Below are positions 25,822 to 56,256 of a DNA stretch of 64,000 bases, piece by piece; position 1 is the stretch's first letter, and each line of letters opens with the position of its first letter. Made by a program: the position numbers and the translations under genes. Location of the stretch: positions 1,426,001 through 1,490,000 of the forward strand of contig JAHEWK010000017.1 of NCBI GenBank assembly GCA_020740775.1, read 5' to 3'. The notes beneath the pieces were generated by a model that searched no databases, was not told the DNA's origin, and saw only the letters and a program-made list of their open reading frames with translations. The stretch is from Ilyonectria destructans (lineage: Eukaryota; Ascomycota; Sordariomycetes; Hypocreales; Nectriaceae).

Positions 25822-26060
25822 CAGGGTTGGTAAATTCGTTAGTAGTTAATCGTTAATCGTTAATTAACTACTAACTAATTAGTTTTAGTCAGTAATTTCT
25901 AATAACGAATTAGTTTTAGTCTTAGTAACGAAATTTTTTTGACTAGTAACGAATAGTTAGTCATTTTCTAGCTTTCGTTTCTAAGACTAAAACTAATTCG
26001 TTAATAGTTAATTAGTTAGTAACTCTAGTAACGAATTCGTTACTAGAGAGTTATAGAATA
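25822..26060 (-). repeat. Right terminus of a hAT-A element (reverse orientation)
   Basis: Begins CAGGGTTGGTAAATTCGTTA, the reverse complement of the hAT-A right end seen at 47062, and stays similar for about 235 bp through a 26-bp perfect palindrome (26023-26048, centred on GAATTC). It then breaks off. The 8 bp outside, GACCTTTC (25814-25821), is the reverse complement of GAAAGGTC outside the hAT-A left end at 43140, so both ends come from one insertion. Confidence 0.7.
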
Positions 26061-31795: not shown

Positions 31796-33464
31796 ATATT
31801 TATTTATCATTCCTACTCTTTTTAATTAGTACTAATTATCCAGAGTATTAATTACATTTAGAGTAGGAACTATATAGATTTAGTTAAAATTAAGCTAATT
31901 TCTTCTTTTTATTTTTAAGATAAATCTTAACTTAATTTTATATTTTAAATCTCTTTTTTTTTTTAATAATTTAATTTTAACCCAATTTTAATTAGATATT
32001 ATTTGGTCGTAAACCTTTTTATAAGTTTATCTATATAGCTTTTATTTCTCTTTTTAAGTATAATAGTAAATTTATTAATAAATTATAGGGGAGTTCCTAT
32101 TTTAAATTTATATTAATATTTAATTAGTATAATTTTATTCTATATTAGAATTATGTATTCTATATAAACTTTAGAGTTATTAATTATATTTATAGTTTTA
32201 TTTTAAGTAGATTATCTTATATCTATTGTATATCTTTAGATGAATATTTAAGTTTATATTTTAAATTTAATTTAATTTAATCTTAATAAATTATCAATTT
32301 TAAGTAGTATATTACTATTCAGTGTATTATTACATTTAATTAAGCTATTAAAGCAGTTTATAATATAAACTTTAATTTCTCTCTATATATTAACTGTATT
32401 TTATTTTAAATTTATATTAACTCTACTCAAGAGATTGCTATTCATACTTATAGTTTTTAGGCTATCAAATATAGTTTTAATGTTTAATTTCAAGTTTATA
32501 TTAGAATTATTTCAATCTTTAATATTTATTTTACTATAGCTATATTCTGCTTTTTAATTTTTAATTTACTTAGGAATTCTTGTATTGTATTTTATTTATT
32601 TTTATCTCATAGTATTTTTAATTTTATAGCTATCATAACTGTATTTAATATTTATAAAGTTAAGTTGGCTAAATAATAAGATTATTATAAATTAATTTTT
32701 ACCTTAAGCTTTAATTTAATTCTTTTAATTTTAACTCTACTATCTGCAGTTGATAATCTTACTATCTGTAGTTAATAATCTTACTGTTTATAAATAATAA
32801 TTTTAAGATAGAAATATTATTTTAAATAATAAGATATAGAAGAAATATCTTTTATTATTAAGACGCTAACTTTTCTTTTATATTTATCTAATCTTTTTAA
32901 CTTCTATTATAACTATAATTATCTATTAAATTTTATAAAACTATACTCATATAAGTTTAAGATATCTTAATTATCTCTTATGTTAATATAATATTAAATA
33001 TTAATATAATACTAAAAGTAAAATAAAGAGAATTAAATACTTAGTATATCTCGAATTTCTTTAAACTATAGGCTTTTTAATCTATTAAAGTTCCCTTTAA
33101 ATAGAGCCTATTCTCTAAGTATTTAATAAAAGATTATGTTAGCTATCTCTAGCTATAATCTCTTTATTAATAATACTAATAGATTTAATATTTAGAAAAA
33201 TCAGATTATTTATATTTATCTATTATCTATCTAAATAAAGAAAGCTACTCTATTAATATTAGCTAAGGTTTTTACAATTAAATAGCTAATTTAAAAATAG
33301 TAGAAGTTTATTAATACTATTAGCAGAAAGATATTTATAAAAGTTAGTCTTACTAAAGTAATATATGAGAGTCTAAAACTAGATATATATATATTATAAA
33401 GTATTTACTTAATAAATACTAACATTGCACTTATTAAATAGAGTTATAGATACTATATTATATA

Positions 33465-35325
33465 ACGTATGTAATAAGTAAGCCGATCAACCAAGTGAGC
33501 CGATCACTTTCCCTTAACCATTAAGATAAAAACCAAGATAAAAACATAACAAAGCATCTAATCAATTAAAACTAAGTGCTATACTCTTCCTCGGAAGTCT
33601 CAATAACAACTTGACATGTTCTTGCATTATGACCAGTCTTGCCGCACACTCCACAATGCCTTTCCCTCGGTCGCGCTGACCCTCCTTGACCACGACTCAC
33701 TGATAATTCAGCCACTACCTGCGCATCAATATCTTTCTGATCAATTACACCCCTTCCCTCATCTAGAGTCATCTTCCCTCCATTCCGTAGGCGGGTTCTT
33801 TTTGCTCTGCGCCGTTTGCTAAGAGTCTCATTTGCCTGTCGAAGGATCTGATTCTCAGACTTCAATAATGCTATCTGATGCATTATTGCCTTCGTTCCCT
33901 TAGAAAATGACTTAAGCGCCTCAACAATAGATGCTGGAGAGCTGCCCTGGTGCCTTCTAATTCGTCTTTCAAGGTATTCAGATTGAGAAGTAGCCTCGAG
34001 GACGGTCTTTGGCGTCTTGGGCACCCAAGCGTCAGGGAGGCTGGCCTCCTCCTCGATCGGTGTCGGGGTCCGTAGCTGCACATCAAGCTTTGATATGACA
34101 CTTTCCGGGTCCAAAGGAACAAGCCCGGCGCCTCGAAACCCCCCCTTGATATTACTTTCCGTCATAGCGGCTTGGTGGGCGGCATAAAAGGCCGGAAGGA
34201 AGTCAGTCTTTGAAACGTGGGTTATGGAGCATCTGATCAACTGCTCAATTTCTCGACCGTATGCTTTTTTGAGCGGCCCAAAACACCCGACATCAAGAGG
34301 CTGAAGTAGATGAGACGAATGAGGCGGCATACACAGCGTGATAATGTGGTTGTCTTCGCAATATTTCTCAAAGTCAACCGAGTGGTGACTTTCATGCCCA
34401 TCAAGGATCAGAAGACGATAGCGGCCGGTTGATCGGGCCTTTGTATGCCGATCGAAGTGCTTGAGCCACTCAAGACCTGTCTCGTTATCGGTCCAGCCAT
34501 TTTGAGTCGTTGCAATAGCCCAATCGCCTGGGAGGTTACTTTCCCGGTACCAGCTGGCGAGGTGATATCGGCCCGCAACCACGATAAACGGCTGGATTGC
34601 CCAGCCTTCTGCATTAATCGCCTGAATGACTGTAACCCATTCCCGGTTTCCAGGCTGGACTGATTTCGGGTTTCCACGCCTATCTGCACCTGTGACGACC
34701 ATTCCGCTTGCGATTATACCCATCATAAAGCCAGTCTCATCAAAGTTGTAGATATCGGCTGGGTTGATACCATATTTCGCGATTATATTCCCCACGAGCC
34801 GAAACCAATTGCGAATAATAGTTGGATCTTCGCATTTGGCCCTCTGATAGTCATATTTACGAAAAAAACGCGTCTTGAGCTCTGGTTGTCGCCTGACGAA
34901 GTTAGAAGCCCAGCGTTTGCCGACAGGTGACGCGTCGCGGTCAGCAAGCAGTCGGTTGGCCATTTCTTCAACACCACGGAGTCGAGGGGGAAACCCTCGC
35001 GAATCTAGGTCGAGAATGAATTGAATAATGATCTGTTCCTCTAGATCAGATAGTCTGCGTGATTTAGGGATAGTATCGCGTCGAGAAAGAATGCCATTAT
35101 GTCGGGCATGCAGGTTTGTATAAGAGACTTGGTAGATCTTTGCAGCGCGTCGGAGACTGAGTTTTGGGTCATTTTGATAAGCTCGAAGCGCAAGAAGGAT
35201 ATTAGCCTCTTGATTTGATTGTGGCATGTTTTGTGGTTGAGAAATTGATGATTGAATTAATGGAGGAGAGATTGAGGGATTTTTGATCGGCTCACTTGGT
35301 TGATCGGCTCACTTATCACATACGT
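33465..35325 (-). mobile_element. Fot1/pogo element, copy 1, intact, 1861 bp
   Basis: Bounded by TA (33463-33464, 35326-35327). Inverted ends of about 42 bp start ACGTATGTRATAAGTRAGCC and contain GTGAGCCGATCA twice. The left end has A where the right has G at two positions. It has the same length as copy 2 (47378-49238), and wherever I compared them the two are identical in reverse complement, including these end-specific differences. GC content is normal against the AT-rich surroundings, so RIP has not touched it. The right side borders the C-terminal half of hAT-4. Confidence 0.9.
33572..35227 (-). CDS. Fot1/pogo transposase, 551 aa (copy 1)
   Basis: Uninterrupted transposase from ATG to TAG, no intron. 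Residues about 10-50 form a psq-type HTH and about 58-120 a CENP-B-type HTH that binds the inverted ends. The DDE_1 catalytic core has D163 (NFDETGF), D276 (LLILDGHESHH) and D312 (LLQPLDVGCFGPLKK), i.e. DD35D with all three acidic residues. A basic region near residues 475-495 could act in nuclear import. The C-terminus has a CCHC zinc knuckle, C525-x2-C528-x4-H533-x4-C538 (CGVCGKTGHNARTC). This is a full set of catalytic features, so the protein is probably active. Its amino-acid sequence is identical to that of copy 2. Confidence 0.9.
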   Translation of the reverse strand: MPQSNQEANILLALRAYQNDPKLSLRRAAKIYQVSYTNLHARHNGILSRRDTIPKSRRLSDLEEQIIIQFILDLDSRGFPPRLRGVEEMANRLLADRDASPVGKRWASNFVRRQPELKTRFFRKYDYQRAKCEDPTIIRNWFRLVGNIIAKYGINPADIYNFDETGFMMGIIASGMVVTGADRRGNPKSVQPGNREWVTVIQAINAEGWAIQPFIVVAGRYHLASWYRESNLPGDWAIATTQNGWTDNETGLEWLKHFDRHTKARSTGRYRLLILDGHESHHSVDFEKYCEDNHIITLCMPPHSSHLLQPLDVGCFGPLKKAYGREIEQLIRCSITHVSKTDFLPAFYAAHQAAMTESNIKGGFRGAGLVPLDPESVISKLDVQLRTPTPIEEEASLPDAWVPKTPKTVLEATSQSEYLERRIRRHQGSSPASIVEALKSFSKGTKAIMHQIALLKSENQILRQANETLSKRRRAKRTRLRNGGKMTLDEGRGVIDQKDIDAQVVAELSVSRGQGGSARPRERHCGVCGKTGHNARTCQVVIETSEEEYST

Positions 35326-38300
35326 TATATATATATATAACTAATATTAATAGCCCTTATTTCCCGTCTTAGGCGAATTGCAACTATTATAAAATATAAT
35401 AGTACTGCAAAAGGTCTATTAGAAGAGGGAATAAAGCGAGATAAATTAGAAGGTCTTTTACCTTCGAATTTCCAAAAGAAGCTTATTCCACTAGGTAAGT
35501 TATTTCCCTGTATTATAAATTATTTAGTTATATATACTAACTTATATATAGATAGCCCAACCCGCTGGAATTCTACTTATTTTATGGTTAATATCGCTCT
35601 TAAGCTTAAAGGGTCTATTGATTATATTAAGAAGAATATCTCTAATATAGAATTTGAGACTATTGCTTTAAGCGAGCTTGATTGGGAAGCTTTAAAGGAG
35701 CTTCAAGAGATTTTTGAGGTTTTTATTAAAGCTTCAACTAAGTTACAGGCCCAGCTTTATATAACTGTGCCTAAGGGGCTTTTATATATCTATCAGATAT
35801 TTAAAAGCCTTATTAGTCTATTAGAGAGGTTTTCTAAGGAAGCTAGAAAGCCTAATAAAGTAAGTTATTTTTCTTTCTTCTTATTTTTATATTTGTTATT
35901 AATTTACTAATTTAATAAGGACTTTTATTCTGGTTATTCTAAGGCTGTTTCAAAAGGCCTAGAAAAGCTAGAAAAATATTTCCCTCGCAAGCTTAAAATA
36001 CAAGACCTTAAGAAATATAAGTAAGTAATTCCTATTTATCTATATAAATGCCTTATTATATACTAATAGAAATAAGGGCTTTTATTTTAGCTACTATTTT
36101 AGATCCTCGATTTAAAATGGCCCATTTTAAACCAGGAGGTTTACTTTATCATTATATTAATATTCATATTGATGTACAGGATTTATTTCAGTCTGAATTT
36201 AACAGGTAAGTAATTTTTTATTTTTATACCTATTAAAATATATCTCAAAAATAAAAGATATATTTTAAAGGCAAATATAAAAGATAATTAAATTACTTAC
36301 CTATTTTATATACTAATTATATAAATAGTCTTAAGACTGAAAAAAGAGGGCTATTATGAGCCTAGTATAGGTCAGTCTACAGATGAGTTAAATATAGATA
36401 TATATAGCTATAGAAATCAGCAAGAAGAAGAAGATTCTAATTCTGATGCCGAGCTATATATATCTTATTTAGATCAGTCTGAGGAATATGACTTATATTT
36501 AAATGAGGTCCGGGCTGGGGGAAAAGTAAGTTATATATCTCTTTTTTATTTATCTATTTACTAATTTATTATAGATTAGCCCTCTTGATTGGTGGAATTC
36601 TAATAGCTCTAGATTTCCTATTTTAAGTATTTTAGCTAGATGTTATTTAGCTATTCCAGCTACTTCTGCTGCAATTGAAAGGGTATTTTCTATTTCTGGT
36701 AATATAATTACTAGAAATAGAAATAGGATTTCATCTAAGGTAGTTAAGCAGCTTATTTTATTAAAGAGCTGGGAAATTTGGGATTTAGATACTTTAGAGG
36801 AGGAATTAAAAGAGGAAAGCTGGGAGGAAATAGGCCTAAAGAGAAGGAAGCTAGTATTATTGAAATTGAGGAAGAAGAGGAAGAGGAAGAGGAGGAGGAA
36901 GAGGAAGAGATAGAAGAAGAGGATTTTATCTAGCTTATTTCCTATATTATTTATTAGTTTATTTTATTTTATTAGCCTTATTTTATTCTATTTTATTTAT
37001 TATACCTTATAAGGCTTTTCTTAATTATATATCTATTTTCTTCTTATATTATTTAATTATATAAGTTAACTTATTACTTATCTCTTATTTAAATACTTAA
37101 GAATAACTTATTTAAAAAAAATTAAATATTACTTATAATATATTATATATATCTTAAATAAAGTATATATAATAGAAGGGATTATAAATAGTCTAGTATA
37201 TAGCTTTTATTTTCTATTTACCTATTTAATTTTTTAATTTTTTAAGTTATTTAATTTTATAAGCTAAGTTATTATATATAAATTATCTCTTATATATAAT
37301 ATAATTCTTTTTAATAATATTAAGATATATCTAGAGTTATAAAATTAATTAGTGTATATTAACTTCCTTTAGTATTTAGTTAGTATTTATATTAAAACTT
37401 TAGTATATAGTATTTTAAAATACTAAAATACTATAATTAAATAACTGTAATTAGTTAAAGATCTATTTATTTTTAAAGCTGATTTTAACTAATAATAACT
37501 AATCTTTATATTATAACTTACAAATTAATAACTTAATTATCCTTTTATATTAAAAGATATATATCTTTATATAGAAAGTAGATATTTCTAAATAGATTCA
37601 GATTTTTTAAAGTCTTATAAATATATACTAATAAAGAATATATATATAAACTTTATATAGCATAATTAATTAGAAATAGAAAGATATAGCGAATATAAAA
37701 CTAAAACTAATTTAATTTAGTTTTCCTTTTGTATTAATTAATAACTTAATAATATTTATATATTAAAAAGTATATTTCTGTATAAGGAAAATTGATATTT
37801 AAAAATAAGTTAAGGTTTTATAAAGTCTTATAAGAATATAAAAATAGAAAGGCTATATCAAAATTTTACATAGCTTAATTAATTAAAAATAGAAAAATAA
37901 AGCTAATTTAAAACTAAAGTTATTCTAATTTAGTTTTATTCTTACTTTATTCTATATTTTATTCTTCTTACTTTCTTTAAATTATTAAAGCTTTTATTTA
38001 CTAATTTTAATATTAATATTAATTTACTATCAAAATACTAATTAATTTTATAACTCGAGATATATCTCTTTTAAATACTATTGTAATTATTACTATTATA
38101 TTAATTAATTAGCTGGATTTATCAGTCTGATTAATTAGTCAGACTAATTAGTCTTTAGTCTGACTAAGGTTTTAGTTATTAAATTTAGTCTTAGTCTTAG
38201 TCACCTTACTGACTAGACTAAGCTGACTATAGTCACTAGAGTGACTAAGACTAAGTGACTAAAGTCAGCAAGGTAGCTTGACTAAGACTAATTAGTCTTA

Positions 38301-38344
38301 GTTACCCCTTGACTAAGACTATAGTCGACTAAATCACAACCCTG
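35326..38344 (+). mobile_element. hAT-4 transposon, C-terminal half (displaced)
   Basis: Starts inside a hAT-4 intron directly at the Fot end and runs to the hAT-4 terminus ...AAATCACAACCCTG at 38344, followed by GTACTACC (38345-38352). The missing N-terminal half lies at 49239-51450 in opposite orientation, next to the second Fot copy, with GGTAGTAC outside its end. The terminal 240 bp are full of GACTAAGACT/AGTCTTAGTC repeats. Confidence 0.85.
35353..36933 (+). pseudogene. hAT-4 transposase, C-terminal exons
   Basis: The first exon begins after a TTAATAG acceptor and reads ALISRLRRIATIIKYNSTAK. Homologous hAT-A copy 2 has RRMRRIITIIKYTQEAK at the same place after an intron. Next comes 35584-35868 (MVNIALKLKGSIDYIKKNIS, and later YIYQIFKSLISLLERFSKEA). 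The dimerisation domain is well kept: LARCYLAIPATSAAIERVFS, then ISGNIITRNRNRISSKVVK. A GAAGAG-rich tract at about 36870-36930 gives either a poly-Lys/Arg or a poly-Glu end depending on frame; the Glu frame runs to the TAG at 36931-36933 and implies a frameshift. It is less decayed than hAT-A copy 1. Confidence 0.7.
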
Positions 38345-38492
38345 GTACTACCTTATACTAATACTAATACTAATTCTTTTAGTATATACTAACTAAATAC
38401 TAAAATAAAATTAGTTAGTACTAAGCTATACTAATACTAAAAAAAATAGTATTTAGTTAGTATTTAAAATACTAACTAATTTCGCGACCCTG
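38345..38492 (-). repeat. Left terminus of hAT-3 (displaced)
   Basis: Reads ...CTAATTTCGCGACCCTG at its right end, i.e. a hAT-3 terminus in reverse orientation, with repeated AGTACTAACTAAATACTAA-like motifs. The 8 bp outside (38493-38500, TACTTAAG) are the reverse complement of CTTAAGTA outside the hAT-3 right end at 55363. The hAT-4 element had inserted into this terminus. Confidence 0.8.
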
Positions 38493-41400
38493 TACTTAAG
38501 GTCTTCTATATAGTAAAGTTTAAAGATTTCTTTTATAAGATATAAATAATCTTTGTTATATTTATTCAGTTTATAGTAATTATAGAAAACTATTTTTATT
38601 ATATTCTATAGAATAATAATCTTTTTATTTTTATAATTAAGAGGCTAATTTTTAGCTTTAAATTATATATTTGATCCTTAAAGTTTATTAGAGGATTTTA
38701 AATTATCTACAGATATTTCTAAAATAGTTATTTTAAGTATATTCATTTAATATATCTTTATTATAGATATCTATTAGTAGTAAAACTAAGAATCTATTTA
38801 TTAGATTATAGCTTACTATTATTAAAGTTGGATTATTAGTTAATAGTATTAGCTCTACTATTTTCAGTTTTTTTAATATAGATAATAATATAGTTAAATT
38901 TAAAGACATACTTACTATATTGAAGTTGTTATATATTAAGCTACTATATAGTTATAAAGTTAAGATATTTTTATAGTTGATATAAGTTTTAACTTTATAT
39001 TTACTTCCAAAGAGATAATATTAAAATTTCTTAAAGATATTAATAATAGTTAGTTTATTAGTGGAAAATACACTTAATATAAATAGAGCCAGCAATAAAA
39101 AGAGTCTAAATTACTCTATACCTCCAGCTAAAAGAAGAGCCTTTAGCTAGAACCAGCTAAAGAATTAGCTTAATTAAAAATAAGAAGTACTTAATTAAGT
39201 ACTTAAGAATATAATAGAATAAAAGAAATATTGAGGAAATAATAAGAGCTATTATAACAGTTTATCTAGAGGTATAATATAAAACTAACTGAATTTTTAA
39301 AGATAAAATTTTAAAAAGAGAAAAAGTATATCCTTCTAATAACTTTCAAAGATATGGTTTTTTAAGTAGTAGCTAGTATCTTAGGCTAGTCTTACTGTTA
39401 TTAAACTTCAGTATATTTTTTAATACTATTATGAACCTCTCCTACAGCTTAATATTTATCTCTAAGTATCTTAAAGTTATATAAGTAACTTACTAAATTA
39501 AATATAGAAAAATAGAAATATATAACTCTTAAGTAATAAATTAAATTAACCCCTATACTATACCTCTTCTTATAGATTCTATTACTATTTTTAACTATCA
39601 GAGTCTATATATCTACCTATAACTTCTTCTTTTACTTTATGTTTAATCTATTAGATTTACAGTTAGACCTCTACTTAAGGCTTCTAACTGCTATCCAGCT
39701 GTATTCTTATTATTCTCTATCATGGACTGCTAATTATTCTATCTAAATAGATTAAATAAGCAGAAAAACTAGTCTAAAGAGTCTACGGACAGCAATAAGA
39801 ATAACTAGCTATTATATTAAGCTAATTAGCCTATTAGATATATTAGTAGCCTAGATATTAGTCTCCTTAAGGTATCTAGTTATTATATTCAGAACTATTA
39901 GAAGAGTTAAATTTTTAGTAGTAAATCTAATCCTTCTTTTCTTTTTAATACTATACTAAATTACTCTAAAGGCTTTCTATTTAGCTTTTTTTTTTTTTTT
40001 TTAGCTAGAAGCTGCCTTTTAAGTTTTAGGTATACTAGTAATAATAGAGATAGGGTTAAGAATAGGCTGAGGCTTTATAATAGCTACTTTAGCTGCTTTA
40101 TCTACCTGTATATTCTTATAGACAGCCAGCTGCTACTAAAACTTATTATCTAGCGTATATATTATCTTACTAAAGAATAGAGTAGTATCTCTAGAGGCTA
40201 AGTAGGGCAGTTACATACTTATATTAACTAAGCTATTAGGCTGAGAAGATAATGAGGCAGTTAATAGTATTAAATTAGATTTTAAAAAGCCAGTAGGAAA
40301 AAAAAGACTCTTAGGTATACTTAAAGATAGAACTTAATATAGAGGCAGTAAAAAAGGCCTACTTTCTAATATTTATTCAGTAGAATTTTAATCTAACTAT
40401 TTAGCTATCCTTAGTAAATTACTCTAAGAGTTTAGTAATATAAACCTTAGTTATAAAATAAAGATAGTTACTTTAGTCTTATTAGTCTTTATTATATTAA
40501 GTAGGTTAGTTAGATTTAGTAGCTTTAAGTTAGAAGACTTAAATAAGCTTATAATTAAGATAACTATGATAGATAAAATATACTTGGCAGGTTTATCTAT
40601 AGCTTTAAATATAAAGCCAGTAGTATCTATAAACTTTTCCTACTTAATATATATTTTAATTAGATATTTTACTAAAGATATAAAAATAGCTATTAGTTAA
40701 ATTATTTTATAAGATATAACTTAATGGATATCTATTAGAGAGAGTCTAACTTTTAGTATTTAATTTTTAGTATAGAAGCTAGAATTATTATATTTAGCCT
40801 ACCTAAGAGATATAAAGCTACTACACTAAATATATAATTTATTAATAGATAGATAGAGTACTTCAGTCTAGAGTAAGTAGATATTATCTAATTGCCTGCT
40901 AATTTATATTTTAATACTAGAAGTATTATATATTTAATCTTTAATATTAATTTTATTTAAAATCATAGCCTTAAGAATACTAACTACCTCTTATAATAAG
41001 GAAGTTATATAGGCCTTATTATTTATAGATTTAATAGAGTATAGAATCCAGTTATATTACCTTATAATCTCTTTAATATTATTTTATAGTAGAAATATTA
41101 AACTTAAAATTAGTTAAAAATAAAAATAATTTAGTAGTTTCTATAATAGATAAAACTAATGATAATATACTTGTTAAATATAGCAGCTTAAAATTCTTTA
41201 TAGCTAGTATACTCTATTATAGTCTTATAAATAATATATTTAGCTCTTTTAGCTACAAACATATTTAATCTATTTAGATTATAAACTAAATTATTAAATA
41301 CCTTTAGATTCTTAATAGAAAGATAGTCTTTTAGGGTTATTACTATATCTCTTATACTATAGATAAATATTATCAGTAGAGAAATAAAATTAAAGTTACT

Positions 41401-42699
41401 AATCTAGCCCTTACTATAAAGTCTATAGAGTAGCCTCTAGAGGTTTTAATAATAGTTACTTTATATTTATCTATTAACTTAGTTATTTTTTCTCTCTAAG
41501 AATAAATTCTAAGGCTTAATAGTCTTCTAGAAATTATAATAGTTAATTTTATCTTTAAATAGTAGGTATATAGATTATTTATTATCTCATTATAACTAGT
41601 TAATATAAAGCTAAAAGAAAAAAGATTATTAAGTAAGAGTATTAACTAGATCTTATTAAATAATATATTTAGCTTTAATAGTAGAAGGAAGGCTTAAAGA
41701 CTATCTTCTTAAGTAATCTTAAAAGTATAGTATTTAATATAGTTATAGATAAAGAACTTATACTCTTTTAGACTATTGAGCTTATCTACTATCTTATTTA
41801 TATTAGTATTATTAAGAGTAAATAGATTTTGCTAATATGCTATAATAGTATAGCTAAAAATAAAGTAATTTACAGCTAGATAATATAGAGTATAGTATAG
41901 CTGCTAAAATAGAAAGAGAAGAATATCTTACTTATTAAAAAGTTTTAAAAAGAAGTTAGATAGCTTTTTAACTAAAACTTTAATTACTAGCTAGATATTA
42001 TAATTAATAGATTAATTAAATAAATAGAAAGATATCTATTAACTTAAAAGTTAAATATTAATAAAATAAGATATTATAGCTAGACTATTCTCTAGAGGGT
42101 TATAGATAGACTGATAATAAAAGTTCTTTTAGAGTAAGTAGGTAAATAAATAGAAGGTGCTAAAAGGATATAACTATACGATATAAGAGCAGGAAGATAG
42201 AGGTTTAATAGGGAAAAAAAGGCTTATATAAAAATAAAAATAAATCTTTTTAGTAAAGGTATAATAATATAGCTAGAAAATATATTTTACTGTAATTCAA
42301 CTTAAATTTCTAAGTATTTCTTTATTTGCTAAACGATGTTTTATAATACCAGCTATTTAATCTTAAAAATAAAATTAGCTAGTAATCTTACTACTATTTT
42401 AAGTGGTTTCTTTTTATAAAAATTATAAGAAGAACTCTACTTATAACTATTATTTTTAAAGCTACAGTCTGCTTTTTATAACTATAAGTATTAACTTCTG
42501 AATATAGCTAGATTATAGTATATATTCTATTATTAATTTATATTTAATATTTTATATAAATTTCTTTTTTTTAGCTTTACTTAATATTATTAAATAGATC
42601 AAAACTATATAGTAGTTTGAGATAATAGAAATAAATAGTTACTACTATATTTGGTATTAAAAGAAATAGTGGCTAAATAATAATATTTAAATTTATTAT

Positions 42700-42955
42700 A
42701 TTTTTATTATGTATATTATAGTTGCTAAAATCTAAATTTAAATTTCAAGCTTTTTTTTTCTATCTACTAAAATCCTATCTAACGTTTTCACCCTACAGCT
42801 ATTCTAACCTTTATATCTAAGAGTTATAAATCCTACAACCCAATCTATAACTAGAACACCCTAAGATCCCTAATACCTATATTAACCCTTATCCAAATCC
42901 GCCCTCTAGCCAGCGCCCTAGCTGGCTATTATCCGCACCACCTCTATACAGCACA
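42700..42955 (+). repeat. Repeat copy (partner 24540-24752)
   Basis: Same repeat as at 24540-24752 but with more C and G kept (for example CCTACAACCCAATC, CCCTAATACC), so it is less RIP-mutated. A GC-normal patch follows at 42940-43010. Together these look like the end of a retroelement. Confidence 0.5.
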
Positions 42956-43586
42956 AGAGCTCATCGAACCAGGGGTTAAACGCCTTTCCGCCAATAGTAT
43001 CAACAAACTCCTGCTTCTGAATTAGCTATTTGGTTTTAAAAGCTTCAGCTAATATTAATAGAGCAGCCTAGTATAATCTTCTATTAAATACTTAAAGAAT
43101 AATCTCTATTTAAAAATAATTCTAATAGACTGAAAGGTCCAGGGTTGGCATTCGTAACTAATTCGTTAATTACTCCTCTGAATATTAACGAATAAAAATT
43201 CGTTAGTTTATAATTAGTTTTTCGTTACTATTAACGAATAGAAATTCGTTAATTTATATTCTAACTATTAACGAAAATATTAACGAAAACTAATTAGTTA
43301 CTATTAACTAATTATTAAATAGATATATAAAATAGAATAAATATATAAAGTAGATATATAAAATGGATATATAAATTGCATATTTACTTTTAAATCTATT
43401 TTTAAATTATTTGATTTTAAAGCAATTAATTTCAAAGCAATAGATTTCCCTTATATATAATATCAGTATGATAGTATATCCTACTATTTAAAAATTAAAA
43501 CTATCAATTCAATCAATTAATTCAATCAATGTACTATCCTATTTTTAAATACCCCAATTACACTATTTTCTTCATTTTTATTCAAA

Positions 43587-46566
43587 ATGGCTTCTTCTAG
43601 CTATAATGAAAGCCTTAATGAATCTCAAGACCCTCTTCAAGAAGAATATCATTCTGAATTTGAAAATGATACTCAGCCTTTTAATAGGGAAACTTCTTCT
43701 ATTTTAGAAGAATCTTCTTCTAATTTACCTTCCAATCCTATTAAATCCCCTTATAATAGGATTGAATATGATCTAGACCCTCTAAATAAAACAAAAGTCT
43801 ATATTTTTAAAGAGGGTCTTTTTATACGGGAATTGCTACCTATTAATCCTGCTATTGATATACGAGAATTAATAGCTTGTACAAGGTATATTTATTTTTC
43901 TATTTTCTATTTTCTATTTCTATTTAACTTTAAAAATACGAATATTTAAATCAGCTGCAACTATCAGAATATTGATAATATAAAAGGATTTAAATCATCC
44001 AATTACGCCCGCCACTATCAATATAAGCATCCTAAAGTTGCTTATAATAAGAAAGCTGAAAAGACTAAGAAAAGAAGTTAGTTATTTTTACTGTTTTTCT
44101 TTATTACTCTATTTACCAATATTCCTTAGAAAGCAATTTAAGCCTAAAAAGCCCCGAACCTTTTACCTTTAATCTAGCTAATTCTTTTTCTTTTACTGAA
44201 GAAGAGGCTTTAAATAAGATTTTTTATTTTCTTATTGAAAATAACCTCTCTTTTAGAGTTATTAACTCTTTATCTTTTCAGAACTTATTATCTTTTTATA
44301 ATAGGATGGTATTATTAATTTTCTATTTACTTATATATAGTGTACTAATTATTTACTAGATCTGGGCCAATTATTAATAGACATAAAATTAAAGAGATCT
44401 CAAATAGGACCTTTAATTCTAGTCTATTAGAATTAAATAACCAGCTAGTAGCTAATATTAAAAGTCAAGGGACTTTTTTCTTAACTTTTGATATTTGGAC
44501 TGCTAGTAACCAGGTCTCTTATTTAGGGATAATACTTATTTATAATCTCTATATCTTATTATATCTCTATATCTTATTTCATTTAATAATAACTAACTAT
44601 ATATAGGATTTTCAAATCTTAATGAAAGTCATACTGGATTATATCTATTTAATAAGTTTATAAAAGTTCTAAAGCCTTGATCTAGTATAGATTTTCAGTC
44701 TATTCTTAGGTTCGTATTTATTATTTCCCTTTGTAATTCAAATAAGCTAATATAAAATTATGGTATTACTAGGGACAATACAGCAAATATTAATACATTT
44801 ATTAAGACTTTTGAAAATGCTTATTTAAGCAATTTCAAAGTTTCCTTTTTAAATGATATTCGCTGTATTGCACATATAATTAATATTATTGTGCAGACTA
44901 TTTTAAAGAATTACCTTTCTAATCCTTCTTTAGAAAATAGGTTATTAAATTATACTAATGTATCTTTTAATAATGCTATTGAAGAGGATGAAGAAATTGA
45001 GCCTGAAGAGCCTTCTTTTAATAGTATGTTATTTTCTATTTTTCTATTTTTCTATTTTTCTATTTTTCTATTTTTCTATTTTCTATTTTTCTATTTTTCT
45101 ATTTTTCTATTTTTCTATTTTTCTATTTTTCTATTTTTCTATTTTTCTATTTTTCTATTTTCTATTTTTCTATTTTTCTATTTTTCTATTTTTCTATTTT
45201 CTATTTCTATGTCTTATTTCTATTTAAGTATAAAAAGACCAACTATTATAGCTCTTATACGCCGTATGAGACGGATTATAACTATAATAAAATATACTCA
45301 GGAAGCTAAAAAGCTTCTAGAAGAGAGTATTTTAAAGTATCAAAAGGAGGGCAAATTAACCTCTAAAAAATCCTCTATTCCTCTTGGTAATTATCATTCT
45401 TATAATCTTATAGAAAATATAACTAACCTTATTTTAGATAATGCAACAAGGTGGAATTCAAAGTATTACATGCTCAGTTCAGTATTAGAGCTAAAAGACC
45501 CGCTATTCTATATTACGAGGAATACCTCAAATAACGAATTTAAAAGGATTTTTCTCTCTAAGTCTGATGGGGTAGAAATAGTGCAATTAAAAGAGATTTT
45601 TAAGACTTTTCTTAAGCCTTCTATTAAATTACAAGGCCGGGTTTATACTACTATTTCTGAGGGTTTATTATATATATATCATATACATAATAAACTGGAA
45701 GGATTAAATAGTGATTTTCTTCTAAGAAATAGCCGGACCTCTGAGGTAAGTTTTATATTCTTTATTTACTTTTTATTATAATGTTAACTATTTATAGGGA
45801 AACCTTTTCTCTGATTTTTCTACAGCTATACAAGCTGGCTTAGAAAAATTAGAAAAATACTTTCCTAGACAAATAATAGCTTCTAATATTAAGAAGTTAA
45901 AACCCTTTCTTTTAGGTATTATTTTAGACCCTAGGTTTAAAATAATACACTTTAAGAAGGGGGCTTATTATTTTACTATTTACGAATATCTGATGATACT
46001 ATTAGTATATTTAAAAGTGAATATAATAAGTTATTTTTTTTCTTAGCCTTTTATAATACTGATTTTAAATAGACTTAAAAGAGAGAGAGGAGGCTTAAAT
46101 ACTGATTCTAATTTATCCTTTGATGAATTGAATGAGGACATTTATAGCGCAGAATCTCCTGAGGCCTCTCAATCAGATTCTGATAAGGAATTCCATATAT
46201 ATTCTAATGAGACTATAGAGGAATATTCTTATACTAATGAGGAAGTTGTTCCTAGAAAGGCAATTATTTTCTCTATTAATCTACCTTTTCCTGACTTTAC
46301 TAATACTTTAATAGACCAATATACTAGACTATTGGAAATCTAATTCAGCTAGATTTCTTATTCTACGTATATTGGCTAGGTGTTATTTAGCAATTTCTGC
46401 TACTTCTGCTGCTATAGAAGAGTCTTTTTCTATTAGTAATAATATTATTACTAAGACTAGAAATAAGCTAGATCTTGAGACTATTAAGTAGTTACTTTTA
46501 TTAAAAAGCTCGAGATTTTTAAATCTTAGTAATTTAAATAAGGAAATTGAAGATAATAGTAATTAA
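43587..46566 (+). pseudogene. hAT-A transposase, copy 2
   Basis: Starts MASSSYNESLNESQDPLQEE and continues as in copy 1. Better preserved: one exon reads from HIINIIVQTILKNYLSNPSL to ...EEPSFNS at a GTATGT donor, followed by an intron filled with a CTATTTTT minisatellite. The next exon reads RRMRRIITIIKYTQEAKKLL. The C-terminus has RCYLAISATSAAIEESFSIS with ATS and E kept. Stops remain (for example TAG near 46490), so it is probably inactive. Confidence 0.65.
45028..45213 (+). repeat. Intronic minisatellite, unit CTATTTTT
   Basis: About 20 nearly perfect CTATTTTT/CTATTTT units fill the intron between the EPSFNS exon and the RRMRRI exon of hAT-A copy 2. Copy 1 has only a short, irregular form at about 29640-29700, so the array expanded after the copies separated. 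Confidence 0.85.
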
Positions 46567-47377
46567 TTTTACTTTTATCAGTATTGAGTTATTTCTTATA
46601 TATTTAGTTTACGTAATATGTCTTAGTTTTTCTTATTTACTATATATATATTATTCACTAAATTGTCTTATTTACTATGCTTATTTTATTTATTAAATTA
46701 CTTTATTCACTATATTTACTTTATTTACTAAACTAAGCTTATTTATCTCATTTACTTTATTCACCTAATTTATAAAATGAACATAAATAGCCTAAATATT
46801 GTATATAGCTTATACTTATAAATTATAATAAATAACTCTAGTAACGAATTCGTTACTAGAGATATTAATAGATTAACTATTAACGAATTAGTTTTAGTCT
46901 TAGTAACAAAGGCTAGAAAATTACTAACTATTCGTTATTACTAAAAAACCTTTCGTTACTAAGACTAAAACTAATTCGTTATTCGTTAATAGAAATCACT
47001 GACTAAAGCTAATTAGTTAGTAGTTAATTAACGATTAACTACTAACGAATTTACCAACCCTGAGTATTAGTAATAGTATTAAGGAAAATATTAAAAAGTG
47101 ATAAAAAATAGGCTAAATATTAACATCTAAAGTAAAGTCTAATAACTAGCTAACCTCTCCATACTAAATACTTAAACTAATAATAATAATAAACCCTACT
47201 ACTACCAAATATAGCTGCAACTAGCAGAAATACTTTAAAATAAATAGAAACTAATATACTAAGTCTCAAGCTACTATAGTAATAAAAAGAATACCTCAAA
47301 CTAAAACTTTAAGGAGGGGGGAATAATTATAAGAGTTAGAATATTAGGGGATATTGCTTTATTCTAGAGTAAGATTA

Positions 47378-49238
47378 ACGTATGTGATAAGTGAGCCGAT
47401 CAACCAAGTGAGCCGATCAAAAATCCCTCAATCTCTCCTCCATTAATTCAATCATCAATTTCTCAACCACAAAACATGCCACAATCAAATCAAGAGGCTA
47501 ATATCCTTCTTGCGCTTCGAGCTTATCAAAATGACCCAAAACTCAGTCTCCGACGCGCTGCAAAGATCTACCAAGTCTCTTATACAAACCTGCATGCCCG
47601 ACATAATGGCATTCTTTCTCGACGCGATACTATCCCTAAATCACGCAGACTATCTGATCTAGAGGAACAGATCATTATTCAATTCATTCTCGACCTAGAT
47701 TCGCGAGGGTTTCCCCCTCGACTCCGTGGTGTTGAAGAAATGGCCAACCGACTGCTTGCTGACCGCGACGCGTCACCTGTCGGCAAACGCTGGGCTTCTA
47801 ACTTCGTCAGGCGACAACCAGAGCTCAAGACGCGTTTTTTTCGTAAATATGACTATCAGAGGGCCAAATGCGAAGATCCAACTATTATTCGCAATTGGTT
47901 TCGGCTCGTGGGGAATATAATCGCGAAATATGGTATCAACCCAGCCGATATCTACAACTTTGATGAGACTGGCTTTATGATGGGTATAATCGCAAGCGGA
48001 ATGGTCGTCACAGGTGCAGATAGGCGTGGAAACCCGAAATCAGTCCAGCCTGGAAACCGGGAATGGGTTACAGTCATTCAGGCGATTAATGCAGAAGGCT
48101 GGGCAATCCAGCCGTTTATCGTGGTTGCGGGCCGATATCACCTCGCCAGCTGGTACCGGGAAAGTAACCTCCCAGGCGATTGGGCTATTGCAACGACTCA
48201 AAATGGCTGGACCGATAACGAGACAGGTCTTGAGTGGCTCAAGCACTTCGATCGGCATACAAAGGCCCGATCAACCGGCCGCTATCGTCTTCTGATCCTT
48301 GATGGGCATGAAAGTCACCACTCGGTTGACTTTGAGAAATATTGCGAAGACAACCACATTATCACGCTGTGTATGCCGCCTCATTCGTCTCATCTACTTC
48401 AGCCTCTTGATGTCGGGTGTTTTGGGCCGCTCAAAAAAGCATACGGTCGAGAAATTGAGCAGTTGATCAGATGCTCCATAACCCACGTTTCAAAGACTGA
48501 CTTCCTTCCGGCCTTTTATGCCGCCCACCAAGCCGCTATGACGGAAAGTAATATCAAGGGGGGGTTTCGAGGCGCCGGGCTTGTTCCTTTGGACCCGGAA
48601 AGTGTCATATCAAAGCTTGATGTGCAGCTACGGACCCCGACACCGATCGAGGAGGAGGCCAGCCTCCCTGACGCTTGGGTGCCCAAGACGCCAAAGACCG
48701 TCCTCGAGGCTACTTCTCAATCTGAATACCTTGAAAGACGAATTAGAAGGCACCAGGGCAGCTCTCCAGCATCTATTGTTGAGGCGCTTAAGTCATTTTC
48801 TAAGGGAACGAAGGCAATAATGCATCAGATAGCATTATTGAAGTCTGAGAATCAGATCCTTCGACAGGCAAATGAGACTCTTAGCAAACGGCGCAGAGCA
48901 AAAAGAACCCGCCTACGGAATGGAGGGAAGATGACTCTAGATGAGGGAAGGGGTGTAATTGATCAGAAAGATATTGATGCGCAGGTAGTGGCTGAATTAT
49001 CAGTGAGTCGTGGTCAAGGAGGGTCAGCGCGACCGAGGGAAAGGCATTGTGGAGTGTGCGGCAAGACTGGTCATAATGCAAGAACATGTCAAGTTGTTAT
49101 TGAGACTTCCGAGGAAGAGTATAGCACTTAGTTTTAATTGATTAGATGCTTTGTTATGTTTTTATCTTGGTTTTTATCTTAATGGTTAAGGGAAAGTGAT
49201 CGGCTCACTTGGTTGATCGGCTTACTTATTACATACGT
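47378..49238 (+). mobile_element. Fot1/pogo element, copy 2, intact, 1861 bp
   Basis: Bounded by TA (47376-47377, 49239-49240). It matches copy 1 in reverse complement, including the two end-specific base differences. The right side borders the N-terminal half of hAT-4 within an intron. Together with copy 1 it forms a pair of 1.86-kb inverted repeats 12.05 kb apart. Confidence 0.9.
47476..49131 (+). CDS. Fot1/pogo transposase, 551 aa (copy 2)
   Basis: The protein is identical to that of copy 1 at 33572-35227, with the psq and CENP-B HTH regions, DD35D core (D163, D276, D312) and C-terminal CCHC knuckle. The 98-bp leader and 107-bp trailer are the same as in copy 1. The presence of two intact copies in a RIP-mutated isochore means either recent arrival or a host in which RIP no longer operates efficiently. 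Confidence 0.9.
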   Translation: MPQSNQEANILLALRAYQNDPKLSLRRAAKIYQVSYTNLHARHNGILSRRDTIPKSRRLSDLEEQIIIQFILDLDSRGFPPRLRGVEEMANRLLADRDASPVGKRWASNFVRRQPELKTRFFRKYDYQRAKCEDPTIIRNWFRLVGNIIAKYGINPADIYNFDETGFMMGIIASGMVVTGADRRGNPKSVQPGNREWVTVIQAINAEGWAIQPFIVVAGRYHLASWYRESNLPGDWAIATTQNGWTDNETGLEWLKHFDRHTKARSTGRYRLLILDGHESHHSVDFEKYCEDNHIITLCMPPHSSHLLQPLDVGCFGPLKKAYGREIEQLIRCSITHVSKTDFLPAFYAAHQAAMTESNIKGGFRGAGLVPLDPESVISKLDVQLRTPTPIEEEASLPDAWVPKTPKTVLEATSQSEYLERRIRRHQGSSPASIVEALKSFSKGTKAIMHQIALLKSENQILRQANETLSKRRRAKRTRLRNGGKMTLDEGRGVIDQKDIDAQVVAELSVSRGQGGSARPRERHCGVCGKTGHNARTCQVVIETSEEEYST

Positions 49239-51450
49239 TATATTATAAGGAAAAACTTACTATTAAAACTCGGCTGTAAAAACTCTTCTTGATTTAAATT
49301 ATCTCCTTTAGATATAGAATCCTGATAGGTAGATAAAATAGAGCTAGAAAAATCAGAAGATAGATATTCCCTTAAAATATCCTGTACAACTAGGTTAAGA
49401 ATATGACTAATACATCGAATATCATTATTAAATTCCTTTCTATAGCTTTTTTTATATATAGCTTTAAAAGAATTTAAAAACCGATTATTATTCGATGCAT
49501 TATGTCTAGTTATACTATATATTAATTAGTATTATATTAAGTATATAAGAAGCAAGAAGGAAATACTTACCTGAGGATATTTTTTAAATGTATACTAGGG
49601 TAAGATTCTAAAGCAGCTAAAAATTGCTTATAGATATATTGCCCAGTATGACTTTCATCAAGCTCATTAAAGCCTATAAGATAAATTAGTCATATAAAAT
49701 ATAATATAGTAAGGAAAAAAAAGGAAATACCTATAAGCTTATATTCTAGCTTAAAATCAGGAGAAATATAAGCTAGAATAATACCTAAAAAGGCAGCCTG
49801 ACTATTAGAAGTCCAAATATCAAAAGTTAGGGAAAAAGTCCCTAAGCTTTTAATATTTTCAGCTAGGTTATTATTTAGCTTAATTAAGCTTGCTTTAAAA
49901 TTATCTTCTAAAGAGACCTTAATATTCCACCTATTTATAATAGGGGTATTCCTAAGATTATTAGCTATAATACCTTTATTGAAATTAGGAAAAGGAGAAA
50001 TATACTTATTATAATAAGATAGAAGCCTTTTAAAAGATTCGCTATTTAAAACTCGAAAAGAGAGGTTATTTTCAATAAGAAAATGTAAGACCCGATTTAT
50101 ACTGCCTTTTTCAGTAAAATCAGGCTCTATAACCTCATGTCTTTTTTTCTCTAATATTTAAATTAAAGAAATCTTGCTTAGACCTAGGGCTAGAGAGATT
50201 ATCAATTTCTATTAATATAGGTTAATAATAAAGTTATAAAATAGAATATAGAATAGACTATTTAACTTACTTCTTTTGAGTGTTTTTTCGGTTTTTTCAC
50301 TCCAAGCTATACCCTTATGAATAGTTCGATAGTGGCGTGTAAAATTAGAGGCTTGGAAGCCTTTAACAGTAGCCTGCTTAGACCAATTGCAACTATTAAA
50401 ATATTAGAAAGAATACCCTTTTGATATACTATAATAAGGTAAAAAGAATATATAGAAAATACTTACCTAGTGCAACTAACTAGCATTTGCCTCTTCTTAG
50501 TCAGGTCTATAGGCAAAAGAGACTGTGTAAATAGCTTATTTGCAAATATATAGATTTTTGACTTAGAAGGGGGATCTAGTTGAAAATTAATAAATTAAAA
50601 CTTAAATATCTTAGCTTATAGGTATTATAAAATTAAGAATAGACTAATTTTAAATACTACATGTTATATGCTATTGAGCCGTTATAAGCCTAAGTGCTGA
50701 CTAATTTTATTAAGCTTAATAAATAGAATTCGTTAATTTTTCGTTAATTTTTCACAGGAAAATTAACGAACTCGTAACTAATTGCTTATATAAGCTTCTA
50801 TACTACGGATAAAATTAAGTGGGGCCTATGTTATAGTATATAAACTATTTATCTATTGTAGTTCTATCTTTAATCATTTTTAACTACTATAGTTAATAAG
50901 ATATTAAATCTTTAATAATTACGAATTACTGAATAATCCTGATATCTTTCGTTAACGAATTAACGAATTTACCAACCCTGTATATTACTAAAATCTTATA
51001 TGATAAAATGTATATAGAGTAAATATATATTAAGATATTCAGAATATTATATGAAACTCTTTTTATTACTCTCTATATATTTTATCTTAGCTAGTTATAT
51101 CTAAAATGGTAAAAAAGAGTGAAGTAAATATAAATATTTATAAGATATAAATTAAAATAAAATAATCTAATAAGTCTTAAATTAACTTAATAATTTTATA
51201 TAGATATAGTTCTTATTTTTTTTAATTAAATAGTCTAATTATTTAGTCTGACTATTTAGTCTGACTAATTAATCTTTAGTCACTCTTAGTCTCGTTACTC
51301 TAGTGACTATAGTCACCTCAGTCATATAAAATCACTGACTATAGTCACTTTAGTCAGATTAAAACCCTCACTAAGACTAAGCTTAGTCAAAATTTAAAGT
51401 GACTAAGACTAAGGACTTTAGTCTTAGTCACTGACTAAATCAGAACCCTG
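49239..51450 (-). mobile_element. hAT-4 transposon, N-terminal half (reverse orientation)
   Basis: Read on the minus strand from the terminus at 51450 (CAGGGTTCTGATTTAGTC) inward. Exon 1 includes DPPSKSKIYIFANKLFTQSL and ends VSCTR at a GTAAGT donor near 50467, matching hAT-A DPPNKTKIYIFEEGLFTREL...ISCTR. The last exon before Fot reads EFNNDIRCISHILNLVVQDI and ends PSFNS at GTAAGT near 49260. The continuation is at 35326 on the plus strand. An additional hAT-A-type end (...CCAACCCTG) at 50980 marks another fragment nested in the 5' region. Frames are broken in places. Confidence 0.8.
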
Positions 51451-54400
51451 GGTAGTACTAACTAAATACTAATTAGTTAGTATTTTAGTATTAAATTAGT
51501 ATTACAATCTATAATTAAGTATTTTATTATATTAATTATCTTAAGATATAATGTTAAAAATTAAAAGTCTTTAGAAGGTATATTATTAAATCTATTATAT
51601 TAATATATAATATTAATAATTAGAAGCTTCTAGAATATGGATTATTAATTCTATTATAATAATAGGATATAATATTAATAATTCGAAGCTTCTAGAAGGT
51701 AAATTATTAACTTTATTAATACAGAATATAATATTAGTAATTAGATTCTTCTAGAAGATAGATTATTAATTCTATTATAATAGAATATAATATTAGTAGT
51801 TAGAAGCTTCTAGGAGGTACTAAATTATTAATTTATTACTTTAGGATATAATATTAGTAATTAGAATCTTCTAGAATTTAAATTCTTATTAATTAATTAA
51901 TTTTATAAACTATAAATATATCTTCAATTTCTCTTCAATCTAAGTCTTTATTCTTTAATCTTTTATACTATTCTATTTTTTTATTAAGCTTATAGTTATA
52001 AGCTATTGTTCTTTAAAATGGATTCAAACGATGATTTTAATTCTTATTCTGAGCCTGAAGCTGATACTAATGCTTTTTCTGAGAAGCTAGTTTTAAGCTC
52101 CCTCTGAAGAAGATAGTATTGCCCAATCAAGCTTAGACTTTAAAATAGGGTGTTTATCCTCCCAAGCTATTACAGAAGATATAAATTCTAAAGTTTATAT
52201 CTTTAAATATAACTTATTTAAAAAGACGATTTTACCTTTAAAAGAAGGTAAAGAGGAAGAAATGGAAATTAGATGCACTATATAAGTCTTTTATTTTCTT
52301 AATTTATTTTCTTAATTTATTTTCTTATATATACTAATATTTAAATAGGTGTAATTATAAGAAAATTGAGAAAGTTAGAGGATTTCAATCTTCTAATTTT
52401 CAAAAACACTATAAAGCTAAGCGTCCTGAAATTGCTTATAATAAGCAATCTGAATCTACTGGAAAAAAGAAGTAAGTTATTTTCAATATATTTAAATTAA
52501 ATTAATCTGAATACTAACTTATAATCTAGAAATAAATTTCATAAAGCCTAATAGTCCTTTTGACCTAAATATTAGGAATAAAAGGTCTAGGAACAATCTG
52601 TTTGATTTATCTAATAGCTTTAAAGAGGAAGAAGCTTTAAAGAAGATTCTTTATTTTCTTATAGAAAATAATCTATCTTTTAATATCTTAAATTCTAGTA
52701 GCTTTTAAGATCTTTTAACCTATTATAATAAGTAAGTTATTTTAGCTATTTATATACTAATATATACTAATAATATTTTAGGGCTAGTCCTATTATTAAT
52801 AGGGATAAAATTAAAGGTATCTTATTAGATACCTTTAATAATAGCTTATTACAATTAAATAAGCAACTAGAAAGAGAATATATCAACCTTTAGGACTTTT
52901 TCCCTTACATTTGATATATGGACTTCAAGTACACAAATAGCCTATTTAGGTATTATCCTTATTTTTATAGATGAGGATCTTAACCATATTTATAAGCTTA
53001 TAGGTTTATTAATATATTAATAATCCCTATTTAAAAGTTAGCTAATTATAAAATTTTAACTAACTTTTAAATAAGCTTTAATCAGCTTATTGAAAGCCAT
53101 ACTGGGCTTTATATTATATATAAGGAATTTAAAAATAGCTTAATTCCTTATCCTTTAATTCAAGATGATACTATTTTTAGGTAAGCTATTTATTTATATA
53201 AATAAGCTAATTAATTTACTAATAAACTATAATAGTATTACTAGAGATAATGCAGCAAATAATAATACATTTATTTCTTTATTTAAAGATAATTTATCTT
53301 TAAATCAGGAAATAAATGATATTCGCTGTATAGCTCATATAATTAACCTTCTTTTAGCTATTATAACCCGAATTCGAAGAATAGCTATTTTAACTAAATA
53401 TACAACTGAAGTTAAACAGCTATTAGAAGAAGGAATAGCTAAATTTAAAAGGGAAAATAAGCCTTTTACAAATAAGAAGCTAATTCCTTTAGGTAAGAAT
53501 ATTATTCTTATTAAGATTAATAAATTAAAAGCTAATTATAATTATAGATAATTCTACTAGATGGAATTCAACATTTAGAATGCTTGAATCTAGTATTAAA
53601 TTAAAAGACCCCTTATATTATATTTATAAAAATACTAATAATAAGGAATATAAAGAAGTTAGTTTATTTAATCTTTTATTATATATATTATAACTAATAG
53701 CTATTTTTAGGTCTTTTTATCTGATCTTGAATGGGCTTTTTTAATATAAATTAAAGCTTTATTTGAGGTTTTTGTTAAGCCTTCAATAAGATTACAAGGA
53801 CAATTTTATACTACTATGCCTGAAGGCCTATTATATATTTATCAAATTTATAATAAGCTAAATGTATTATATAAGGCTTTTATTACTAATAGTAATAAAA
53901 AGCATCGATTAGTCAGTATTAAATACTATTTATTAAATTAGATTACTAACTTATTATTTAGGCTTCCTTTTATTTATACCTTTCAAAAGCTATAGAAGCT
54001 GGTATAGATAAGCTAGAAAAATACTTTCCTAAAAAGCTAACTAATAGAAATATAACTAGCTTTAAGCCTTATCTTTATAGTATTATTTTGGACCGTAGGT
54101 TTAAATTAATGCATTTTGAAGATAAAGGTTTATTAGCCTTTTATCCTTCTATTAGTCAAGATATTACAAGTCTTTTTAAATTAGACTGTCAGAAGTAAGT
54201 TAAAAAATATCTTTTAGTATTATAAGCTAATTACTAATTATTTAATAGAATGAAGATTGAAAGAGGAGATTTTCAGCACTCAATTAGACCTAATATATCC
54301 TTTGATGAATTAGGTCAAGATAACCAATTAGAAGCTGAATCTTCTAATGAAGGGTCAGATAATGAATTTTATATAAGTAATATTCCTAAAGAAGAGGAAT

Positions 54401-55363
54401 ATCTTACTTATATAAATGAAGCAGTCTTACCTAAAAAGGTTAGTATATTCTATTATTTACCTTATATCTAATTTAATTACTAATCTTAATTTAATAGACT
54501 AATATTCTAGAATATTGGAGAAATAATTCTATACGATTTCCCAATTTAACTATATTAGCTAGACGCTATTTAGCTATTCCAGCTACATCAGCTAGTATAG
54601 AAAGTACTTTTTCTATTAGTAATAATATTATTACTAAGTCAAGAAATAGGCTTTTACCTAATACAGTAAAACACCTGATTTTAGTAAAAAGCTGGTATAG
54701 AAGCTTGAAGGAATTAAAAAAGGAAGAAAAAATTGAAGAGGAAATTGAGTTAGAATAGATTTATTTTTAGGTTTAAATTAATTTCGTTTTATATTATTAT
54801 TAAAGCTATTTATAAATTAAATTACCTATTCTATATATTATATAGCTATTTATATATTATATAGTGACTTATTAGTTATATAGCTATTTAGTAATTATTA
54901 TAGTTATTAATTTATTGAATAACTATTTAGTTAGAATATATTAATATATAGTTATATTATAATTATTTAGCTATTTATTAATTATATAATTTTTGTAAAG
55001 TAATATTACTATTTATTAATTAATATAGCCATTTATTAATTATGTAGCTATTTATTAATTGAATAGCTATTTGAAAATCAATATAGGTATTTATTAATTA
55101 TATAGCTATTTAAATAGATATAATTAGTCTAGGAAAATAATAAATAAAAGAATATTCAAGTAATTCTATTATTTTATTAATTCTATTTTAGTATTTTAAA
55201 ATACTAATTACTAAAATATTAATTAGTATAAATACTAACTAGACACTAAAGAAATTAGTATATACTAACTAAATACTAATTTAAATTAGTTAGTATTAGT
55301 ATAAGTTAGTACTAACTAAATACTAATTGCAATTAGTATATACTCACTAATTTCGCAACCCTG
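51451..55363 (+). mobile_element. hAT-3 transposon, main body
   Basis: The body and right end of hAT-3. It begins at the GGTAGTAC duplication where hAT-4 inserted and ends ...AATTTCGCAACCCTG at 55363, followed by CTTAAGTA. Its first ~150 bp are at 38345-38492 in reverse orientation. Termini are rich in ACTAACTAAATACTAA motifs. A local array of about 60-70-bp degenerate units with TATAATATTAGTAATTAGAA lies at about 51540-51880. Confidence 0.8.
52018..54758 (+). pseudogene. hAT-3 transposase, multi-exon, decayed
   Basis: Starts MDSNDDFNSYSEPEADTNAF at 52018. A frameshift near 52098 separates it from SEEDSIAQSSLDF. Then come YIFKYNLFKKTILPLKEGKE and a BED-finger part (GFQSSNFQKHYKAKRPEIAY). Later exons include TRDNAANNNTFISLFKDNLS, NDIRCIAHIINLLLAIITRI and EAGIDKLEKYFPKKL. 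The C-terminal dimerisation domain is RRYLAIPATSASIESTFSIS then NNIITKSRNRLLPNTVKHL, with the TAG at 54756-54758. The order matches hAT-A and hAT-4, so the three are related families. Confidence 0.65.
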
Positions 55364-55848
55364 CTTAAGTATCTAGCTAAACTATAATGCTATCAATTAT
55401 ACTATCTATAGAGTTAAAAAGTTTATTATAATCTTTATAAAGTATTTTAAGTAGAATTAAATAATCTATTATATTAACAAATCTAGAAATTTAATATTAA
55501 ATTGCCTCTAGAAGAATAAAATAAAAACTTCGAGTACCTAAAGATCTCTATATATAGCTAGTATAGGTCGTATATAAGTAGTCTCTATATAGATATTAAA
55601 AGATTAATAAGATTCTTAAATAAGTTAAGTTAGTATATTAATTTCCTAAGATTTTTTAAAAAAAAGTATAGAATACTATTAACTAATATAATCTATATTA
55701 TAAACCTACTACAAAAGAATATTAGCTATATAGAGAATTATAACTACTATTAGTTATAGTATAACTTTAGAACTTAATTATAATATATTTTATTATAAAA
55801 TTACCTCTATTTAAAGACTTAATAATAAATATCTTCTATAATAGTATT

Positions 55849-56256
55849 CAGGGTTGCGAAATTTAGTATTTTAGTATTTTCTTTAGTACTGATTTAAAAA
55901 TGTATTATAATTCAGGCTTTAATATTATAATATAGAAATCTGCCTTAATATATAGCTTTAATATCTCTTTTTCCAATACTAAGACTTTTACTAATTTACT
56001 ATTTTTATATAGCTTATAAATTCAATTAGTACTAAATTAGTATTTAATTTTAGTGGAATAATACTAAAAGTGCACTAATTGCAATTTTAATAGCTTATAT
56101 AAGCAATATTAGTAATATTAACAGTAAATAAATAAGGCTAAATAGTTAGTTTATATTATAGATTAAGTTATTTAATTTTAAGATATATATTAAAGCTTGT
56201 ATAAAGGTTACAAAAAGTACTAAAAAAAGTACTAAAATACTAATTTCGCAACCCTG
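55849..56256. mobile_element. hAT MITE, 408 bp, 8-bp duplication ATAGTATT
   Basis: Starts CAGGGTTGCGAAATTTAGTA and ends TAATTTCGCAACCCTG, flanked by ATAGTATT at 55841-55848 and 56257-56264. The ends match hAT-3, which is therefore the likely source of transposase. No coding capacity. Confidence 0.85.

Follow-up and report, generated by a model that had tools for sequence, protein, structure and literature searches.

How did a 12-kb segment between two transposon copies come to lie in the opposite direction to that of a second copy of the same region, and which of the two orders is the older one? The window analysed here is a stretch of 64,000 nucleotides from Ilyonectria destructans (C9:1426001-1490000). 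The assembly from which it comes totals 71.7 Mb and has 74 contigs; on one of these, C15, the region is present a second time, with a divergence of about 1.2%. The features of the window that bear on the question are the following.

32420..33464, plus strand: left outer flank, LTR-like repeat near the border (C15:617614-618641)
33465..35325, minus strand: Fot copy 1, bordering the inversion on the left, identical to copy 2 after reverse complementing
33572-35227, minus strand: transposase ORF of Fot copy 1, 551 aa
35326..47377, no strand assigned: inverted segment of 12,052 bp, matching C15:633481-618639 on the minus strand, with flanks matching on the plus strand
35326..38344, plus strand: right half of hAT-4, within the inverted segment; 35326-35725, joined with the reverse complement of 49241-49640, is continuous on C15 (98%)
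38345..38352, plus strand: hAT-4 octamer GTACTACC, sole occurrence in the window
38493..38500, plus strand: hAT-3 octamer TACTTAAG, with one change in C15
47378..49238, plus strand: Fot copy 2, bordering the inversion on the right, identical to copy 1 at 1861 of 1861 positions
47476-49131, plus strand: transposase ORF of Fot copy 2, with Pfam domains DDE_1, HTH_psq, and HTH_Tnp_Tc5
49239..51450, minus strand: hAT-4, left half, not part of the inverted segment, assigned by continuity on C15 and an exon peptide match
51451..51458, plus strand: hAT-4 octamer GGTAGTAC, sole occurrence in the window; both copies direct on C15
55364..55371, plus strand: hAT-3 octamer CTTAAGTA

The two Fot copies are in opposite orientation and, when one is reverse complemented, are the same over all 1861 bp. 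This identity and the positions of the borders bear out the preliminary description, which had placed 35326-47377 between two inverted copies of this length. The terminal inverted repeats are 42 bp long with two mismatches, and each of the four Fot flanks starts with TA; TA was also found alongside two other full-length copies that were inspected. PF03184, PF03221, and PF05225 were above the Pfam cut-off in the transposase ORF. The inverted repeats, the TA target site, and the combination of DDE_1 with Tc5/psq-type DNA-binding domains place the elements in the Fot/pogo group, and they share these features and the 551-aa ORF with the Fot5-like Fot/pogo (TcMar-Fot1) elements of Fusarium. Among the 120 listed of 4003 protein matches to the 551-aa ORF, the named ones are mostly from Fusarium, one named Fot5 transposase is 76% identical, and none exceeds 93% over partial length or 88% over at least 98% of the length.

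A search of the same assembly with the Fot sequence gave 49 alignments from the best 40 of 101 candidates, which makes all copy numbers lower bounds. They comprise the two copies in the window, 41 further long alignments with 72-90% identity, and six short ones to the inverted repeats. No close third copy was present among these 40 candidates, the next best being 90% identical. Elsewhere, at C14:100859-105713, two Fot relatives also lie in inverted orientation, separated by about 1.3 kb and scoring equally against the query. One of the ten relatives compared (L025) carries a bias of the repeat-induced point mutation type (241 vs 53).

Comparison with C15:597501-647500 gave alignments over window positions 15166-62896; the alignments considered were above 92% identity, and one more block at 91% appeared in another comparison. 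A segmental duplication of at least 47 kb is seen on two contigs, between window 15166-62896 and C15:601739-647500. Insertions aside, the colinearity of the two copies is broken by two large segments in reverse orientation and by a small one of 91 bp (window 32335-32425 against C15:617112-617202, 98.9%). Over 17 alignment blocks chosen from 25, with gaps left out, 476 of 38,682 sites differ (1.23%; 0.37-2.27% by block). Repeat-induced point mutation was considered as the source of these differences and rejected: 275 of the 476 are transitions, with C-to-T changes about as frequent as T-to-C changes. A second haplotype in place of a duplication was likewise rejected. The family PF04563 (RNA polymerase subunit 2) gave four matches at three places on three contigs, as expected for three single-copy genes; to the extent that one family can tell, the assembly therefore looks haploid and C15 looks like a duplicate.

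On C15 neither Fot is present, and the segment lies the opposite way round between the two empty sites. The sites are 14.8 kb apart there, and the two Fots are 12 kb apart in the window. At both sites C15 reads flank, TA, and flank, with a single TA at each Fot position and one substitution at the second site. At three of the four borders, the alignment block ends at most one base from the Fot border. The fourth ends 17 bases inside Fot copy 2 (49222), which we read as a chance extension in AT-rich sequence. The breakpoints thus coincide with the Fot borders, without loss of flank; one is in the LTR-like repeat and the other in an intron of hAT-4. The C15 copy having the other order is also what would be seen if the Fots were real and the 12-kb segment had been misoriented in the assembly, or if the culture contained both orientations, of which the assembly shows one. 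With 1861 bp of identity between the copies, the order can be settled only by reads exceeding about 2 kb. However, 74 contigs, one of which is 7.4 Mb long, suggest a long-read assembly, and a 1.9-kb repeat is normally spanned in such an assembly. We consider an artefact of this kind quite improbable.

If the segment has been inverted, the left flank would earlier have been joined to the sequence leading up to 47377, in reverse complement. The flanks were joined in this presumed original order and searched against the same genome. For joint A (33065-33464 followed by the reverse complement of 46976-47375), the match was C15:618242-619040, covering all 800 bases with 99% identity (40 of 52 candidates scored). 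Joint B (the reverse complement of 49241-49640 followed by 35326-35725) matched C15:633082-633881 over 800 of 800 bases with 98% identity (all five candidates scored). Both rejoined pairs of flanks are thus continuous on C15, in agreement with the earlier claim that flipping the segment reunites the split pieces. As a control, joins in the present order gave 44 alignments (40 of 47 candidates scored) and 18 alignments (17 of 17 scored), and none of them extended more than nine bases past the joint.

Joint A is crossed elsewhere as well. Among its 43 alignments, 13 others extend 30 or more bases to either side of the joint, with 70-80% identity (40 of 52 candidates scored), and the crossing is repeated locally within the retrieved loci. 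Five pairs, each on a single contig (C67, C73, C8, C1, and C23) and with 7.5-7.9 kb between the two members, account for ten of the 13. This spacing suggests that the site of joint A is in an LTR and that the 13 alignments represent about eight elements; the pairs on C73 and C8 score equally and appear to be copies of one another.

These results also bear on the reverse polarity, in which the window order would be the older one, and C15 would have lost both Fots and flipped back. Nothing beyond its logical possibility speaks for it. The hAT-4 flanks are continuous and the octamers are paired in the C15 order, the 13 further alignments have the C15 joint, and loss of both Fots would need to have left precisely one TA behind at each site. 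We regard this as barely credible. The window is the derived copy, because its duplicate on C15 is un-inverted and free of Fots and has the target-site octamers in pairs. It was on the window copy, after the duplication, that the two Fots inserted and the segment was inverted. With no difference in 1861 positions, the 95% upper bound of divergence between the Fots is 0.16%; at 1.23%, such identity would occur by chance with a probability of about 1e-10. If rates are alike, the Fots would be much younger than the duplication; alternatively, they may have been homogenised by conversion.

The TA at the four Fot borders cannot show an exchange of flanks; the octamers of the nested elements do re-pair. 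All four octamers are immediately preceded by the end motif CCCTG, and the pairs represent 8-bp target-site duplications of hAT-3 and hAT-4. The preliminary description had hAT-4 split between the two Fot borders, with reverse-complementary octamers at its ends, and this holds: GGTAGTAC and its reverse complement are seen once each in the window, where 0.6 occurrences of GGTAGTAC are expected, and on C15 GGTAGTAC is present at 630305 and 636140 in the same orientation. The analogous claim for hAT-3 stands as to position, with octamers at 38493 and 55364, and the hAT-3 ends are in direct orientation on C15. As TACTTAAG and CTTAAGTA each occur four times in the window (2.4 expected for CTTAAGTA), this pair is weak on its own. 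With regard to chance octamers, the C15 alignment makes both pairs secondary evidence. Octamers paired elsewhere in the genome had been named beforehand as an observation against the inversion. Taken literally such a pair exists, in the two copies of GGTAGTAC on C15; since C15 is the un-inverted duplicate of the very same locus, this pairing supports the inversion.

The exons beside the Fots lead to the same arrangement. The peptide ending in PSFNS (reverse complement of 49474-49241) matches the second hAT-A copy at 44807-45040 with 38% identity, and the peptide containing ALISRLRRI (35341-35499) matches it at 45245-45388 with 58% identity. These are consecutive stretches on the same strand, as had been proposed. 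A donor GTAAGT on one side and an acceptor TTAATAG on the other lead us to read the Fot as probably sitting in an intron of hAT-4. The label hAT itself was not borne out by Pfam: none of four ORFs of these elements matched a family, which is a weak test for exon-sized pieces, and the name rests on the 8-bp duplications and the preliminary description.

The inversion, its breakpoints, and the derived state of the window are supported by the C15 alignments and the paired octamers. As to the cause, the best fit is recombination between the Fots. One Fot would have inserted into the hAT-4 intron once the region had been duplicated, and a second, identical one, pointing the other way, into the LTR-like repeat. 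A crossover between these inverted copies would then have flipped the segment and exchanged the flanks of the Fots, splitting both hAT-4 and the surrounding hAT-3. We put the probability that two insertions were followed by such a crossover at roughly 80%, judged from the sequence. An intermediate state, with the two Fots in place and the segment un-inverted, was not encountered in this assembly. The preliminary description had offered the same explanation; its inversion and breakpoints are confirmed by C15 and the octamers. An inversion made in one step by transposase would look the same, given that the copies are identical and the target site is TA; the order of Fots first and a flip by homologous recombination is what we infer.

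In such a one-step event, a single Fot, in hAT-4 or in the LTR-like repeat, would make the second copy and the flip together, by replicative or alternative-end transposition into the other of these sites. The only identical copies among the scored matches, with the next best at 90%, sit exactly at both breakpoints, and the TA at all four borders without loss of flank is predicted by this model also. Nothing in the sequence positively favours it, and a local hop with a later crossover would do without any unusual step. Furthermore, cut and paste is the accepted mode of movement of Fot/pogo elements, which counts against a one-step event. A one-step origin is therefore considered unlikely. If true, it would mean that Fot elements produce inversions themselves instead of passively supplying homology, and that the two identical Fots are the two ends of a single event.

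The inversions at maize p1/p2 reportedly involve Ac/Ds elements, another superfamily. In that system, alternative-transposition inversions are attributed to transposons, with transposase acting on ends of different elements (PMC8225341); here no positive sign of this was seen. A crossover between the inverted Fots has a closer parallel in Colletotrichum fructicola LJ19. Inversion 1 of this isolate, 19.6 kb long, lies between inverted full-length Fot copies (TcMar-Fot1, c. 1800 bp, with an intact transposase ORF), and four of five inversions accompany inverted repeat elements (PMC11018114). Flanking by inverted full-length Fot1-type copies is common to both cases. The copies are 98.77% identical there, whereas they are 100% identical here; both breakpoints there are intergenic, whereas here one falls in an LTR-like repeat and the other in a hAT intron. 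The C. fructicola inversion was found by comparison between isolates and is supported by mapping of long reads, whereas the reference here is a duplicate within the same genome assembly. The kind of event is thus already known, a Fot1-type inversion having been published for C. fructicola (PMC11018114). No earlier description of the present locus was found in a literature search covering titles and the beginnings of abstracts. The cause is familiar, and the evidence is unusually clean: the inversion between the pair of transposons is exact to the base, and its previous state is kept in the same genome, so that order and direction need no outgroup strain.

The second large reversed segment is a separate inversion of about 5.3 kb, in which window 52754-58066 corresponds to C15:642315-637350 on the minus strand (window 52676-58120 including losses). 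At its two ends, about 78 bp (52676-52753) and 54 bp (58067-58120) of window sequence are missing from C15. Window 52619-52800 has unbroken homology to both hAT-A copies and the hAT-3 ends are direct in C15; at this inversion C15 is the changed copy. The losses point to end joining rather than repeat recombination; no match between the two C15 breakpoints was detected at the comparison settings used. The two duplicates were thus inverted independently, and the C15 inversion is a new observation. Each has undergone its inversion since the duplication, by what look like different routes, and the pair can serve as a small test bed for rearrangement of repeat-rich fungal chromosomes.

Within this region the window contains an insertion of 408 bp (55849-56256) with CAGGG...CCCTG ends and an 8-bp duplication, ATAGTATT, which is not present at the C15 site. 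A 93% relative is found near C15:617205-617614, with none at the equivalent window position. The whole neighbourhood is AT-rich: over about 42 kb (window 21001-63000) the GC content is mostly 14-33%, except in the Fots and at 25001-26000. Per kb outside this block, it is about 42-55% leftward and 47% in the last kb rightward. ORFs with Asp f 4-like and thaumatin domains, at 19641-20423 and 63310-63813, bracket the AT-rich block.
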